A DNA stretch of 64,000 nt from Microlunatus sp. Gsoil 973 (lineage in GTDB: Bacteria; Actinomycetota; Actinomycetes; Propionibacteriales; Propionibacteriaceae), in contig NZ_CP046122.1 of NCBI RefSeq assembly GCF_009707365.1, positions 124,001 through 188,000 of the forward strand. The letters are read 5' to 3'. Position 1 is the stretch's first letter. Each line of letters begins with the position of its first letter. The notes below the pieces were generated by a model. It made no database searches, was not told where the DNA came from, and saw only the letters and a program-made list of their open reading frames with translations. Shown piece by piece: positions 42,405 through 61,577 of the stretch. The position numbers and the translations under genes were made by a program.

Positions 42405-42797
42405 ATGACCGAAGCATCGACCGACAGACCGATCAAGGTTCCCGGCCCGCATCATCCGATCACCGTCGAGCCCAGCTCCGATCGGGTGACCGCAACGGTG
42501 GACGGCTCGACGATCGCTGACTCGACGGCGACGCTCACACTCGCCGAGGCCGGATATCCGGTCGTCCGGTACTTCCCACGAGCCGACGTGGAGATGAGCC
42601 TGCTCGAGCGGACCGATCATGCGACGTACTGCCCTTACAAGGGAGACGCGTCGTACTTCACGATCCGCACCGGAAATGCCTTGCTGAAGAACGCTGTCTG
42701 GACCTATGAGCAGCCGCACGAGGCTCTCTCGGAGATCGCCGACTACGTTGCGTTCTACTCCGATCGCGTCGAGGTGGTCGCTGCTCCGACCCCGTGA
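42405..42797 (+). CDS. DUF427-family protein
   Basis: This 130-residue protein shows the DUF427 pattern: DSTATLTLAEAGYPVVRYFP, CPYKGDASYFTI and the C-terminal IADYVAFYSDRVEV. The family forms a small beta-rich fold of unknown function, widespread in actinobacteria. The ATG at 42405 was preferred to a GTG three codons earlier. Its 3' end overlaps the 3' end of the convergent hydrolase gene by 43 bases, so both genes encode protein from the same DNA there. Confidence 0.85.
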   Translation: MTEASTDRPIKVPGPHHPITVEPSSDRVTATVDGSTIADSTATLTLAEAGYPVVRYFPRADVEMSLLERTDHATYCPYKGDASYFTIRTGNALLKNAVWTYEQPHEALSEIADYVAFYSDRVEVVAAPTP

Positions 42798-43816
42798 CGG
42801 GCGGCGATCCGGCGGATCTCGGTCGCCAGCAGGTCAGGATGTTCGCTGGTGGTCAGGTGGCCTCCGGGAAAGGTGCGAACCTCGACCCGGGGAGCACGGA
42901 TCCGGGTCGCCGGTAGCTGGCGGTGTTCGTAGGCGTCCTCCTCACTGCCGCCGACGTAGAGGGCGACCGAGCCGTCCAGCTCACGGTCGATCGCGGCGAG
43001 ATCCCAGCGCTCGGCATGCCGCTTGTGCTCCCGGAGGAAACCGGCGGCATTGTGGGCGAAGGCCGCGCCGTCCCGTCGAGTGATCGCCGACCACATCTGG
43101 GCGATCTCCTCCGACTCCGGACGGTAGTCACGCGAATACATCTGCGCTCGCCGCATGGACACCTCGAACGGGCGCAACGACGCCTGCCACTGCCGCATCC
43201 CCAAGGCGCCGATCCGGCTGCGCAACAGCGGAGTGCCGAGCCACGGGTGGCTGTGACGGTCGGCGAACAGGCCCCCGTTGATCATGAATACCGCGGTGAT
43301 CCTGGTCCCGGCCGCTCCGGCCGGCTCGTCCAGCTGTCGCCGCAGCAGTTCGAGGACGGCCAGCGACGTGTAGTCGAAGGTGACAACGACTGTGTGCCGG
43401 ACATCGTGGTGTCGCCACAGGGCCTGGACAAGATCTGCACGTTCCATCGTCGAGTACGGATAGTCCCGCGGCTTGTCCGAGTCGCCCTGCCCGACGGGTT
43501 CGACGTAGAGGCGTGGCGTGGGCTCGTCGCCGAGCAGCCGGTCGACCTGTGCCCAGCCGTAGGACCCATCGGGGAACCCGGGCAACATCGTCAGCCACAC
43601 CGCATCCAGTGCTGTCCCGCCCGCCGGTGCAGCGATGCGCTCGAACACCTGCACCGCGTTCCGGGCCGCTGCATCGGCCGACCCGGGGTGGGAGGCCGGC
43701 GCCACGTGACGGGCGCTCGGGTCGTAGCCGACCCGCCGTCCGCCGGCGAACCACTCGTCGGCGGTGACCAGCTGGCCGCCCCGGGGGGCAGCCGTCGTCG
43801 GTTGCTTGTCATTCAT
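42755..43816 (-). CDS. Alpha/beta hydrolase with aspartate at the nucleophile position
   Basis: An alpha/beta hydrolase of 353 residues. The oxyanion region is LPGFPDGSYGW, followed by the GQGDSDKP motif. The nucleophile elbow reads VTFDYTSLA with Asp 148 where serine hydrolases have Ser, and a late His sits in FPGGHLTTSEHP. Asp at this place is typical of haloalkane dehalogenases and epoxide hydrolases. The gene diverges from a TetR regulator across three palindromic operators, so it is probably induced by a xenobiotic or hydrophobic ligand. The start ATG has GGAG about eight bases upstream on the minus strand. Confidence 0.8.
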   Translation of the reverse strand: MNDKQPTTAAPRGGQLVTADEWFAGGRRVGYDPSARHVAPASHPGSADAAARNAVQVFERIAAPAGGTALDAVWLTMLPGFPDGSYGWAQVDRLLGDEPTPRLYVEPVGQGDSDKPRDYPYSTMERADLVQALWRHHDVRHTVVVTFDYTSLAVLELLRRQLDEPAGAAGTRITAVFMINGGLFADRHSHPWLGTPLLRSRIGALGMRQWQASLRPFEVSMRRAQMYSRDYRPESEEIAQMWSAITRRDGAAFAHNAAGFLREHKRHAERWDLAAIDRELDGSVALYVGGSEEDAYEHRQLPATRIRAPRVEVRTFPGGHLTTSEHPDLLATEIRRIAARHGVGAATTSTRSE

Positions 43817-43839
43817 CAGAATCTCCTCGACATCAATTG

Positions 43840-43854
43840 GTGGACACCGTCCAC
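43840..43854. promoter_or_regulatory. TetR operator copy 1
   Basis: GTGGAC-ACC-GTCCAC is a perfect 6+6 palindrome with a 3-base spacer. It lies 24 bases upstream of the hydrolase start and is the first of three in the divergent gap. Confidence 0.75.
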
Positions 43855-43860
43855 TCCGAA

Positions 43861-43875
43861 GTGGACACCGTCCAC
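43861..43875. promoter_or_regulatory. TetR operator copy 2
   Basis: This second copy is identical to the first over all 15 bases and starts 21 bp after it, two helical turns, so dimers bound at both sites would lie on the same face of the DNA. Confidence 0.75.
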
Positions 43876-43888
43876 TTTAGTTGTGCAA

Positions 43889-43903
43889 GTGGACGCTGTC
43901 CAC
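43889..43903. promoter_or_regulatory. TetR operator copy 3
   Basis: GTGGAC-GCT-GTCCAC keeps both arms and changes only the spacer. It starts 28 bp after copy 2 and ends 12 bases before the TetR ATG, so it should control the regulator's own gene. Confidence 0.75.
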
Positions 43904-43915
43904 TAATTTGTGATC

Positions 43916-44563
43916 ATGACCGATGCAGCGGCACGCACAGCAGGGCGACGTCCACGAGGGGAGGTGCGGGACGGGCTGATCAAGGCCGGACTCGAACTGG
44001 CCCGCGCCGGCGGTCCGGACGCCGTCGTGCTCCGCGAGGCGGCCCGGACAGTGGGCGTGGTGCCGAATGCTGCGTACCGGCACTTCTCCGACCGCGAGGA
44101 GCTGCTCGCCGCAGTGTGCGCGGCCGCGATGCGGGAGCTGGCCGCCCGAATGGCGACCGAGGTCGGCCGGATCCGGGGCAGGTACGGCGACGCGGCGGCT
44201 GCCGGTCGGAGGTTGCGGGCGATCGGTCGGGCCTACCTCGAATTCTCCGACACCGAACCGGGTCTGTTCGTCACCGCGTTCGCCGTGCCGCAGCGGCACG
44301 CTTACCAGAGGGCCGACGACAAAACGGATCGGTATCCGCTGCCCCTGGACCAATTGCGCGCGGTACTCGACGAGCTGGCCGACGCCGGCGTCCTCCCTCC
44401 GCGACGACGGGCCGATGCCGAGTATCCGATCTGGGCCACCATGCACGGCCTGGCCGTACTCACCGGACAAGGCCCGCTGCGCGACGTCCCGGCCGCGACC
44501 CGCCGCCATCTGGAACGGGTCACCCAGGCATTCATCGAGGGCGCCATCCGTCAGTCCATCTGA
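43916..44563 (+). CDS. TetR/AcrR-family transcriptional regulator
   Basis: The N-terminal helix-turn-helix (AGLELARAGGPDAVVLREAA through VGVVPNAAYRHFSDREELLAAV, about residues 20-70) is typical of TetR repressors. The C-terminal ligand domain belongs to the TetR_C_33/WHG-like group judged by GRAYLEFSDTEPGLFVTAF. It is divergent from the Asp-nucleophile hydrolase gene, with three copies of GTGGAC-N3-GTCCAC between them, which are presumably its binding sites. The ATG was chosen over a GTG two codons upstream. Confidence 0.9.
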   Translation: MTDAAARTAGRRPRGEVRDGLIKAGLELARAGGPDAVVLREAARTVGVVPNAAYRHFSDREELLAAVCAAAMRELAARMATEVGRIRGRYGDAAAAGRRLRAIGRAYLEFSDTEPGLFVTAFAVPQRHAYQRADDKTDRYPLPLDQLRAVLDELADAGVLPPRRRADAEYPIWATMHGLAVLTGQGPLRDVPAATRRHLERVTQAFIEGAIRQSI

Positions 44564-58453: not shown

Positions 58454-61063
58454 TCACACCTCGGAGACCTGCTGACAGCGGTGCGCGCGGTCGGCGGCGT
58501 CCAGCCGCTCCGAGACGATGTGTTTGACCATGTCGCCCAGTGGCGCACCGACGGCGGTCACCCCGGCGGCGAGCCATCCGTGGACCCGGCCGAGCAGTGC
58601 AGCATCATCGGCGATGTCGGGGAAGAGGTAGGTCAGCACGTTCTGCCTGAAGATCGACGACTTCTCCGCCCAGACGCCGGTCGACGTGGAGATCTCCTCG
58701 GCAGCCTTCAGGTACTTGTCCAGATAGCCGTCGAGGACCCCGGCCTGGTCCGGTTGCCAGAACGCCGCACAGATCTGGCGCTGCGTCTCGTTCGGGACGT
58801 CGTTGCGGTCGACCGCGAGCTCCCAGGCCTCGGCCTTGGCCTCGGCGGTCGGTCGCGCGGACCGAGCCGCGGCCGCATTCTCGGCGCCGGTGACGGTGTT
58901 GTCCCGCTCGAGCTCGGCGGCGACGAGTTGCTCGTCCGCTGCACCGCACCGGGCCAGTTCGATGATCAACAACCAGCGCAGTTCGGCGTCGATCACCAAC
59001 CCGTCGGGAACATTGCGCCCCTCCAGCCAGTCGGTCAGGGCGGCGACGCCCTCCTCGGAGAGCACGGCCTGTGCGTACGCCTGGGCCAGCGCCAGTTGAT
59101 GATCACTGCCCGCCTCGGCGGCGGCGACCAGATCGGCCAAGCCCTGTTCCCAACGGCGGCGGACCGTCGTCCGGATGCCGGGTGCGGTGTAGGAGCGTAC
59201 GGCGAGACCGGCGTTCATCAGCACGGCCCGGACCGTGCTCAGGTCGGTCTCACTGCCGACGTTGCGGAGCACCAGCTCGGCGTAGTCGGAGGCCGGCAGC
59301 TCGGCGTCGCGGCACATGTCCCAGGCGGCGCCCCAGCAGACCGCCCGGCTCAGCGGCGAGCTGATCCCGGACAGGTTGGTGATCAACGTCTTCATCGACC
59401 GGTCATCGAACCTGATCTTGGCGTAGCCGAGATCCTCGTCGTTGACCAGCACAAGATCGGGACGTGGCCTGCCGACCAGTTCGATCACGTCGCTCGATGC
59501 ATCGGCGATGTCTGTCTCGACCAGATCGGTACGCACCAATTCCCTGCCCAGCAGCTCGTACAGGCCGATCGCGATGCGGTGGTGACGCAACGTCGGGTGG
59601 TCGGCCGGAGCGGTCTGCTCGACCGCGAAGGCGGTGAACTCGTCATCGTCGTTGACAGTGAACTGCGGACGCAGGGTGTTGACGCCGGCCGTCTCCAGCC
59701 ATTCGGCCGACCAACCCGAGAGGTCGCGGCCGGATGGCCCTTCCAGTGCCTTGAGCAGGTCGGCCAGTCGGGTGTTGCCGAAGGCATGTTCGGCGAAGTA
59801 GGCGCGGGCTCCCTCGAGGAACGCGGCCTGACCGACGAAGGCGACGAGTTGGCGCAGGACCGAGGCGCCCTTGGCGTAGGTGATGCCGTCGAAGTTCGAT
59901 TCGACCGCCTCGAGATCGACCATGTCAGCCGCGATCGGGTGCGTGGTGGGCAGTTGGTCCTGCCGGTAGGCCCAGTTCTTCCGGGATCCCGTGAAGGTCG
60001 CCCACGCCGTCTGCGGATCACCGGTCCGCTCGGCGATGGCGAAGGTGGCGGAGAACTCGGCGAAGGACTCCTTCAGCCACATGTCGTCCCACCAGACCAT
60101 GGTGACCAGGTCGCCGAACCACATGTGGGCGAGTTCGTGCAGGATCGTTTCGTCGCGCTGCCGGTAGGACGCCTCGGTGACCCGGCTGCGGAAGACAAGA
60201 TCATCACGCAGGGTGACGCAGCCGATGTTCTCCATCGCGCCCATGTTGTATTCCGGCACGAACGCCTGGTCGTACTTGCCGAACGGGTAGGCGTACTCGA
60301 AATGCTCTTCGAAGATGTCGAAGCCGGCCTTGGTTGTGGCGAAGATCCGGTCGGCGTCCAGGTGCTCCTGGAGCGACTTGCGGACCAAGATCGACATCGG
60401 CAGTTCGCCCGACTTGGTGGTGTGGCTGTCGGAGACCACCGCGTAGTGTCCGGCGACCAGGCTGGTCAGGTAGGTCGAGACGCGCGGTGTCGGCGAGAAA
60501 TGCCAGCTGCTGACGTCCTGAAGCCCGTCGACAAGGGTCGGCTCGTCACCGATGGAATTGGCGATCACCGTCCAGTCCGACGGCGCCAGGACGGTGAGTT
60601 CGAAGGTCGCCTTGAGGTCGGGTTGCTCGAAACAGGCGTACACCCGGCGCGCCTCGGAGGCCTCGAACTGGGTGTACAGATAGGTCCGCTGGTCGGCGGG
60701 ATCGACGAAGCGGTGCAGCCCTTCGCCGCTGCGGCTGTAGCGGCAGAGCGCAAGGACGGCCAGTTCGTTGTCCCCGGCGGCGACCGGCAACGGCAACCGG
60801 GAGCCGTCGAAGCTCCCCGGGTCAAGATCATCGCCGTTCAACGATGCCGACAGCACCCGCTCGGCGATCAGATCGATGTGGGTCGTCGCTGCCTCGCGAG
60901 CGCTGAACCGGACCAGGGTCCGCGACACGAAGGTGGTGTCGGGCTGCGTCAGGGGCTGGCCGGACAGATCGTGTCCGGACAGGTCGAGGGCAACCGTGTA
61001 CGAGTCGGTGGCCAGCAACGACGAGCGCCGTTCGGCCTCGTCGCGGGTGAGGTTATGCAGCAT
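58454..61063 (-). CDS. pepN: Aminopeptidase N (M1 family)
   Basis: This 869-residue M1 metallopeptidase has the substrate motif GAMEN (about residues 250-254) and the zinc motif HELAHMWFGDLVTMVWWDDM with the third ligand in LKESFAEF (about 315-345). N-terminal HNLTRDEAERRSS and the long helical C-terminal domain match actinobacterial PepN. It removes N-terminal residues from peptides in the cytoplasm. The ATG with AGGAT upstream was chosen; an ATG three codons earlier is possible. Confidence 0.95.
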   Translation of the reverse strand: MLHNLTRDEAERRSSLLATDSYTVALDLSGHDLSGQPLTQPDTTFVSRTLVRFSAREAATTHIDLIAERVLSASLNGDDLDPGSFDGSRLPLPVAAGDNELAVLALCRYSRSGEGLHRFVDPADQRTYLYTQFEASEARRVYACFEQPDLKATFELTVLAPSDWTVIANSIGDEPTLVDGLQDVSSWHFSPTPRVSTYLTSLVAGHYAVVSDSHTTKSGELPMSILVRKSLQEHLDADRIFATTKAGFDIFEEHFEYAYPFGKYDQAFVPEYNMGAMENIGCVTLRDDLVFRSRVTEASYRQRDETILHELAHMWFGDLVTMVWWDDMWLKESFAEFSATFAIAERTGDPQTAWATFTGSRKNWAYRQDQLPTTHPIAADMVDLEAVESNFDGITYAKGASVLRQLVAFVGQAAFLEGARAYFAEHAFGNTRLADLLKALEGPSGRDLSGWSAEWLETAGVNTLRPQFTVNDDDEFTAFAVEQTAPADHPTLRHHRIAIGLYELLGRELVRTDLVETDIADASSDVIELVGRPRPDLVLVNDEDLGYAKIRFDDRSMKTLITNLSGISSPLSRAVCWGAAWDMCRDAELPASDYAELVLRNVGSETDLSTVRAVLMNAGLAVRSYTAPGIRTTVRRRWEQGLADLVAAAEAGSDHQLALAQAYAQAVLSEEGVAALTDWLEGRNVPDGLVIDAELRWLLIIELARCGAADEQLVAAELERDNTVTGAENAAAARSARPTAEAKAEAWELAVDRNDVPNETQRQICAAFWQPDQAGVLDGYLDKYLKAAEEISTSTGVWAEKSSIFRQNVLTYLFPDIADDAALLGRVHGWLAAGVTAVGAPLGDMVKHIVSERLDAADRAHRCQQVSEV

Positions 61064-61109
61064 GATCCGCATCCTATGCGGGTCAGCGGGCGGACCCTAA
61101 GATGCAGGC

Positions 61110-61577
61110 ATGCGCGTACACATCGGCAGCGATCACGCCGGCTTCGAGCTGAAGAACCACCTGGTGGAGGTGCTGACCGCTGACGGGCATCTGGTTGTCG
61201 ATCATGGTCCGCAGGCGCTCGATCCCGACGACGACTACCCGATCTACTGCATTCCGGCGGCGCAGGCCACGGTCGACGACGAGGGGTCCCTTGGCATCGT
61301 GATCGGCGGCTCGGGCAACGGTGAACAGATCGCCGCCAACAAGGTGACCGGAGTGCGCGCCATCCTCGCCTATGACGAGGACACCGCCACGTTGGGCAGG
61401 CTGCACAACAACGCCAACGTGATCTCGATCGGTGCGCGGCTGCACTCGCTCGAGGCGGCCACTGGCCTGGTCCGGCTGTTCCTGGCCACCGAGTTCTCCG
61501 GTGAGCCGCGGCATCAGCGCAGGATCGACCAGCTGGCGGCGTACGAGAAGAGCGGCGAACTCCCGGCCGGCGCCTGA
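61110..61577 (+). CDS. rpiB: Ribose-5-phosphate isomerase B
   Basis: This 155-residue RpiB/LacA-family protein begins VHIGSDHAGFELKNHL and contains IGGSGNGEQIAANKV (about 71-85). Actinobacterial RpiB proteins have Ser where E. coli has the catalytic Cys, as here. It interconverts ribose-5-phosphate and ribulose-5-phosphate. The gene diverges from pepN, and downstream lies a repeat-rich non-coding block. Confidence 0.93.
   Translation: MRVHIGSDHAGFELKNHLVEVLTADGHLVVDHGPQALDPDDDYPIYCIPAAQATVDDEGSLGIVIGGSGNGEQIAANKVTGVRAILAYDEDTATLGRLHNNANVISIGARLHSLEAATGLVRLFLATEFSGEPRHQRRIDQLAAYEKSGELPAGA

Follow-up and report, generated by a model that had tools for sequence, protein, structure and literature searches.

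In the window (the whole 64,000-nucleotide stretch of Microlunatus sp. Gsoil 973 DNA analysed here), an α/β-hydrolase gene and a gene for a TetR-family regulator diverge from a 99-bp gap, with the hydrolase starting at 43816 on the minus strand and the TetR at 43916 on the plus strand (ATG; a GTG at 43910 is a possible upstream start). The gene next to the hydrolase is a convergent DUF427 gene (PF04248; 42396-42797). The first-pass annotation had described three copies of GTGGAC-N3-GTCCAC, two of them identical, as filling this gap; three perfect 15-bp dyads of exactly this form do lie within it, although they occupy only 45 of its 99 bp. The dyads at 43840-43854 and 43861-43875 are identical, each reading GTGGACACCGTCCAC on the plus strand, and that at 43889-43903 reads GTGGACGCTGTCCAC, with start-to-start spacings of 21 bp (43840/43861) and 28 bp (43861/43889). 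The features of the locus are as follows.

42755-43816, minus strand: α/β-hydrolase gene, 353 aa (open reading frame, alignments, AF2 model and Foldseek)
43822-43828, minus strand: likely ribosome-binding site of the hydrolase, GAGGAGA (read from the sequence)
43840-43854, unstranded: putative third operator, 21 bp from the 43861 site, present in the window only, downstream of the expected transcription start
43861-43875, unstranded: putative operator common to relatives, overlapping the predicted -10 hexamer of the hydrolase and its expected transcription start
43874-43902, minus strand: predicted hydrolase promoter, TGGACA-17-TAAAGT (promoter scan; geometry common to relatives)
43889-43903, unstranded: putative operator common to relatives, containing the predicted hydrolase -35 hexamer
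43904-43909, plus strand: possible tetR -10 hexamer, TAATTT, 6 nt before the ATG (read likewise)
43916-44563, plus strand: TetR-family regulator gene, 215 aa (Pfam TetR_N and TetR_C_33)

A genome-wide search for further copies of the operator, which the first-pass annotation had proposed as a check, returned no exact site beyond the three in the gap among 4,913,910 bases. The reversed pattern used as a control also had three matches genome-wide, a rate that would put about 0.00006 sites in a gap of 99 bp. When up to one mismatch was allowed, the genome held 36 sites versus 58 for the control, and with up to two mismatches the window held 13 sites versus 6.07 in shuffles. The exact and one-mismatch counts, set against the control, thus confine the signal to the cluster in the gap, and a wider regulon marked by exact sites in this genome was rejected.

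The predicted hydrolase promoter TGGACA-17-TAAAGT was the sole promoter-like match in 43700-44050, against an average of 0.0 (sd 0.2) in shuffles. Across the loci compared, a -35 hexamer TGGACR placed within the distal site and a -10 hexamer (TAATGT, TATTGT, TATAGT or TAAAGT, for example) whose end takes in the two opening bases of the next site give spacers of 16-18 nt. Because TGGACR is part of the dyad sequence, the -35 match cannot be counted separately from the operator. The conserved spacing of about 28 bp fits a predicted hydrolase promoter with one site on the -35 and the next overlapping the -10. The tetR promoter is weak and absent from the scan output for 43700-44050; if TAATTT serves as its -10, the tetR mRNA would be leaderless.

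The regulator matched TetR_N (E = 3.8e-8, 33.4 bits, cut-off 24) and TetR_C_33 (E = 7.6e-13, 49.4 bits, cut-off 26.8), and its relatives of solved structure are general TetRs, the best being 3on2 (6.2e-7). Relatives were present in 68 of 391 genomes of the order (E ≤ 1e-30), and among the matches listed in that search we examined 30 loci, the window counted in. All 17 TetRs that are at least 61% identical (window included) had at least one exact dyad upstream, and 16 of them at least two. For the 13 TetRs at 40-47% identity, a site within two mismatches was found at 12 and an exact site at two, against an expectation, at the shuffle rate of the window, of about 0.03 sites with up to two mismatches per 360-bp stretch. 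The motif NAAYRHF stood in the expected recognition-helix region of 33 of 33 aligned TetRs, a count for which only frames with a loose helix-turn-helix pattern were scanned and to which all 33 loci contributed a row. The recurrence of the dyad beside these relatives, together with the constant recognition region, indicates that the operator goes with the regulator branch, and it supports the view, already put forward in the first-pass annotation, that the dyads, which bracket the predicted hydrolase promoter, behave as operators of this TetR.

For the hydrolase, we compared the window with 14 other actinobacterial loci, 11 of which come from one genus (including named Kribbella records) and are therefore not independent. 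Loci from duplicate genomes (L021, L022, L024 and L029/L035, with identity over a 1-kb stretch checked for L021, L022, L024 and L029), L036 (which repeats the L032 gene), L010 and L012 from Bacteroidota, and ten distant relatives (L014-L019, L030, L031, L033 and L034) were dropped. At least one exact dyad preceded the hydrolase at all 14 loci, and at 13 of them a pair of dyads lay 27-29 bp apart (28 bp in six, 29 bp in six and 27 bp in one), the second site of the pair having one mismatch at L005. At L004 there was a single site, so that the pair is not indispensable. The counterpart of the conserved pair in the window is 43861/43889, at 28 bp, with 43840 as an extra site. The 21-bp spacing of 43840/43861, on which the first-pass annotation had laid weight as permitting cooperative binding, was absent from all 14 other loci, and we rejected it as a conserved cooperative arrangement; as 21 bp makes two helical turns of 10.5 bp each, cooperativity within the Microlunatus genome is possible.

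A divergent TetR, 61-73% identical, accompanied the hydrolase at 13 of the 14 loci. At the fourteenth, L026 (genome G531), the linked TetR keeps residues 154-213 only, and an intact, unlinked TetR (L043) with its own operator pair 28 bp apart is found elsewhere in the same genome, which makes control in trans plausible. Apart from this G531 pair, exact sites away from the locus were at about the control level in the genomes of the 14 relatives (2-5 per genome versus 1-6). Neither a TetR match nor an exact dyad was found at the two Bacteroidota loci or at the ten distant relatives (27-37% identity), so the hydrolase also exists without the switch; two-mismatch sites were present at two of the distant loci, L018 and L019.

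The genes that accompany this switch vary. At 11 of 11 Kribbella-genus loci a SAM methyltransferase directly follows the hydrolase, matching the methyltransferase of L051 at 67-89%, and at one of these (L020, genome G517, minus strand) the hydrolase (2439-1495) and the methyltransferase (1518-736) form a single open frame of 797 aa, a natural fusion. L004 has a different methyltransferase (33%) as partner, L006 a beta-carbonic-anhydrase-like gene, and L005 neither. In the window, no SAM methyltransferase stands beside the hydrolase, and the Microlunatus genome yielded three weak methyltransferase matches only, the best with E = 6.1e-10 at 36%. The switch also occurs without an adjacent hydrolase: TetRs at least 61% identical stand opposite the same methyltransferase at L044, L045 and L051 and opposite a carbonic-anhydrase-like gene at L039, with an operator pair at all four, and they have operators and no clear divergent partner at L040 and L043. 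More distant TetRs stand opposite ABC, MFS, DUF899 and RibD_C genes, assignments of which Pfam confirmed one of each (L055, L065, L059 and L061), the rest being made by eye. These neighbours of the more distant TetRs favour, only indirectly, the xenobiotic inducibility that the first-pass annotation had considered likely. At L059, L064 and L067, related TetRs are divergent to DUF899 genes, with operator copies that are degenerate or exact. The hydrolases of L011 (4001-4744) and L032 (1289-1791) lack the stretch around residues 215-273 and the downstream methyltransferase is retained; the enzyme may thus be dispensable.

Residue 148 of the translated hydrolase is Asp. In a profile alignment with haloalkane dehalogenases and epoxide hydrolases of solved structure, Asp148 and His320 coincide with the nucleophile and the base, in agreement with the first-pass annotation as regards the nucleophile, and both residues are invariant across 23 aligned relatives. 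The Glu293/Asp294 stretch is conserved, with D294, invariant in 14 relatives, as the candidate acid. In the same 14 aligned relatives H188 and H190 are invariant and Y227 nearly so, and these were not matched to the cap Tyr-Tyr/His-Tyr positions. Relatives of the hydrolase included seven actinobacterial loci at 61-73% and two from Bacteroidota at 44-46%; in actinobacterial relatives further off, the residues held in common are W22, D148, Y149, N180-G181-G182, H188, P191 and H320, a set that may resemble motifs of MEST/PEG1-like hydrolases. The window hydrolase falls below the Pfam cut-off for Abhydrolase_1 (18 bits versus 25.8), and the hydrolases of L008 and L010 pass Abhydrolase_6. The AF2 model, built with nine sequences, was moderate (mean pLDDT 72.2, pTM 0.78); Foldseek against the PDB put the dehalogenase/Renilla luciferase group first, and VIA-align gave ties within Z 1 among a subfamily-III dehalogenase (8ooh, joint first), a cofactor-free dioxygenase, epoxide hydrolases and a feruloyl esterase. 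Because the model is moderate and these matches tie, the reaction class cannot be read from the fold, and a family outside those listed in the comparison may also apply.

Subfamily-II haloalkane dehalogenases carry a halide-binding Asn in the motif HGNP, subfamilies I and III have their second halide-binding residue elsewhere, and α/β-fold epoxide hydrolases carry HGXP. At this position the window hydrolase and 13-14 close relatives read PGFP, so that GXP is kept, the His is replaced by Pro79, and Phe81 occupies the column of the Asn of DbeA and DatA. A haloalkane dehalogenase serving haloalkane breakdown, one of the two activities the first-pass annotation had suggested, would agree with the best match of the 23-sequence profile, dehalogenase 6s42 (E = 1.6e-17), with the presence among the top matches of DatA, which likewise has a Tyr after its nucleophile, and with a weak match to the NCBIfam dehalogenase family PRK03592 (26.8 bits versus a cut-off of 241, thus not reached). 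DbeA and DatA further share the fold, the Asp nucleophile and the His base. However, epoxide hydrolases score nearly as well (8zp6, 4e-17; 9c2g, 3.4e-16), the best 60 of the 269 distinct PDB sequences matched being led by dehalogenases and epoxide hydrolases together, and with the Asn missing we would not class the enzyme in subfamily II. Both dehalogenation and a role in haloalkane breakdown therefore seem unlikely, and dehalogenation less likely than epoxide-type ring opening. Among bacterial epoxide hydrolases (isobutylene epoxide hydrolase 9c2g, MdEH 8zp6 and EchA 1ehy), 9c2g and 8zp6 resemble the window hydrolase in the Asp-Tyr at the nucleophile, and a large residue at the X of HGXP is a further likeness. 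The HGXP His is replaced in the window hydrolase and its two ring-opening Tyr were not identified, and we would not class the enzyme as a standard epoxide hydrolase either. Epoxide-type ring opening is the reaction we favour, at somewhat less than even confidence, and some other substrate class is about as likely.

The closest functional parallel may be CifR/Cif of Pseudomonas aeruginosa. CifR is described as a TetR repressor that binds the gap of divergent genes and is released by certain epoxides, and Cif as an Asp-nucleophile epoxide hydrolase under its control, whose operon has two further genes, morB and an MFS gene; Cfl2 of Burkholderia cenocepacia is likewise a Cif-like hydrolase beside a TetR repressor (PMC8244358). 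The window likewise has a divergent TetR with dyads in the gap beside an Asp-nucleophile hydrolase. In contrast to cif, the hydrolase gene stands alone next to the convergent DUF427 gene, with no morB/MFS operon, and its product is only remotely similar to Cif-like 1 (7jqx, profile E = 6e-14). The best reading by analogy is that the unit works like CifR/Cif, and we do not class it as a member because the operon partners differ and the relatedness is remote.

What the computation shows directly is the presence and conservation of the dyads, the way they fit the promoter and the alignment of Asp148 and His320; that relatives carry this switch in front of either the same enzyme or other ones suggests a chemical-response unit. 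We consider the locus to be, with fair probability, a TetR-repressed, ligand-released enzyme unit built on an Asp-nucleophile hydrolase. A TetR dimer would bind the two shared dyads (43861 and 43889) and cover the -35 and the -10/start of the hydrolase promoter; as these dyads adjoin or sit inside the putative tetR promoter, both hydrolase and tetR would be kept low, and the third dyad (43840), special to the Microlunatus genome, would add one more block, immediately downstream of the start. Release of the TetR by a small molecule would then allow the hydrolase to be made, and catalysis would proceed by way of a covalent ester on Asp148, which water activated by His320 would resolve.

Other explanations of the locus differ in what the TetR answers to, in what the dyads are and in whether the hydrolase still matters. 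The TetR might respond not to a foreign chemical but to an internal metabolite or to a natural product made by the cell itself or a neighbour, with the hydrolase and the relatives' methyltransferase tailoring that compound. The methyltransferase at all 11 loci of one genus and its single frame with the hydrolase in L020 speak for this, as does its resemblance, weak and far below cut-offs, to sarcosine/dimethylglycine and geranyl diphosphate methyltransferases, but the window has no such neighbour and its genome only the three weak matches given above, and we regard this alternative as rather improbable, if the most serious of the three. That the hydrolase no longer matters and the TetR regulates only itself in the window could be argued from L040 and L043, where TetR and operators lack a recognisable divergent partner, and from the internal shortening in L011 and L032; the window hydrolase, however, is of full length and has retained the residues that do not vary among 14 aligned relatives, which makes this very unlikely. 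We give even less credence to the dyads being RNA hairpins or terminators and not protein-binding sites: the promoter scan did flag 43888-43904 as terminator-like, but that match is the operator palindrome itself, and the dyads recur beside TetRs with differing neighbours, an unchanged recognition region and a spacing that fits the promoter.

Beyond the repressed, ligand-released unit in the window, it is possible, though doubtful, that the TetR branch and its promoter-embedded pair of sites form a portable switch placed before different actinobacterial enzymes, whose main form would hydrolyse and then methylate (Asp-hydrolase plus SAM methyltransferase, one polypeptide in L020) and so disarm or tailor one class of compound; the window would hold a reduced version, with the hydrolase retained and a third operator acquired. 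A two-step reaction of this kind is suggested by the natural hydrolase-methyltransferase frame, and a clean operator with its matched TetR branch is a ready candidate sensor. TetR-controlled hydrolases are a known theme, and the window hydrolase belongs to a branch that there falls below the Pfam and NCBIfam cut-offs. Neither the operator consensus nor six exact spellings of it were found in the literature searched, which includes few subscription papers, and nothing on point was found there on the WHG domain or the Kribbella unit.

Of the 391 genomes searched in the order, the window genome and 11 others, all of the latter from one genus, contained close hydrolases, and six further matches were distant. 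The window genome was the sole carrier among 97 genomes of its family, with no match in the 18 other listed genomes of its genus. This patchy distribution suggests that the hydrolase spread by transfer; the G+C content is not unusual. A search of plasmids gave no match. As a separate observation, the sole phage match was a 30% relative at 60519-61184 of an unannotated Pseudomonas phage record (OQ572413.1).
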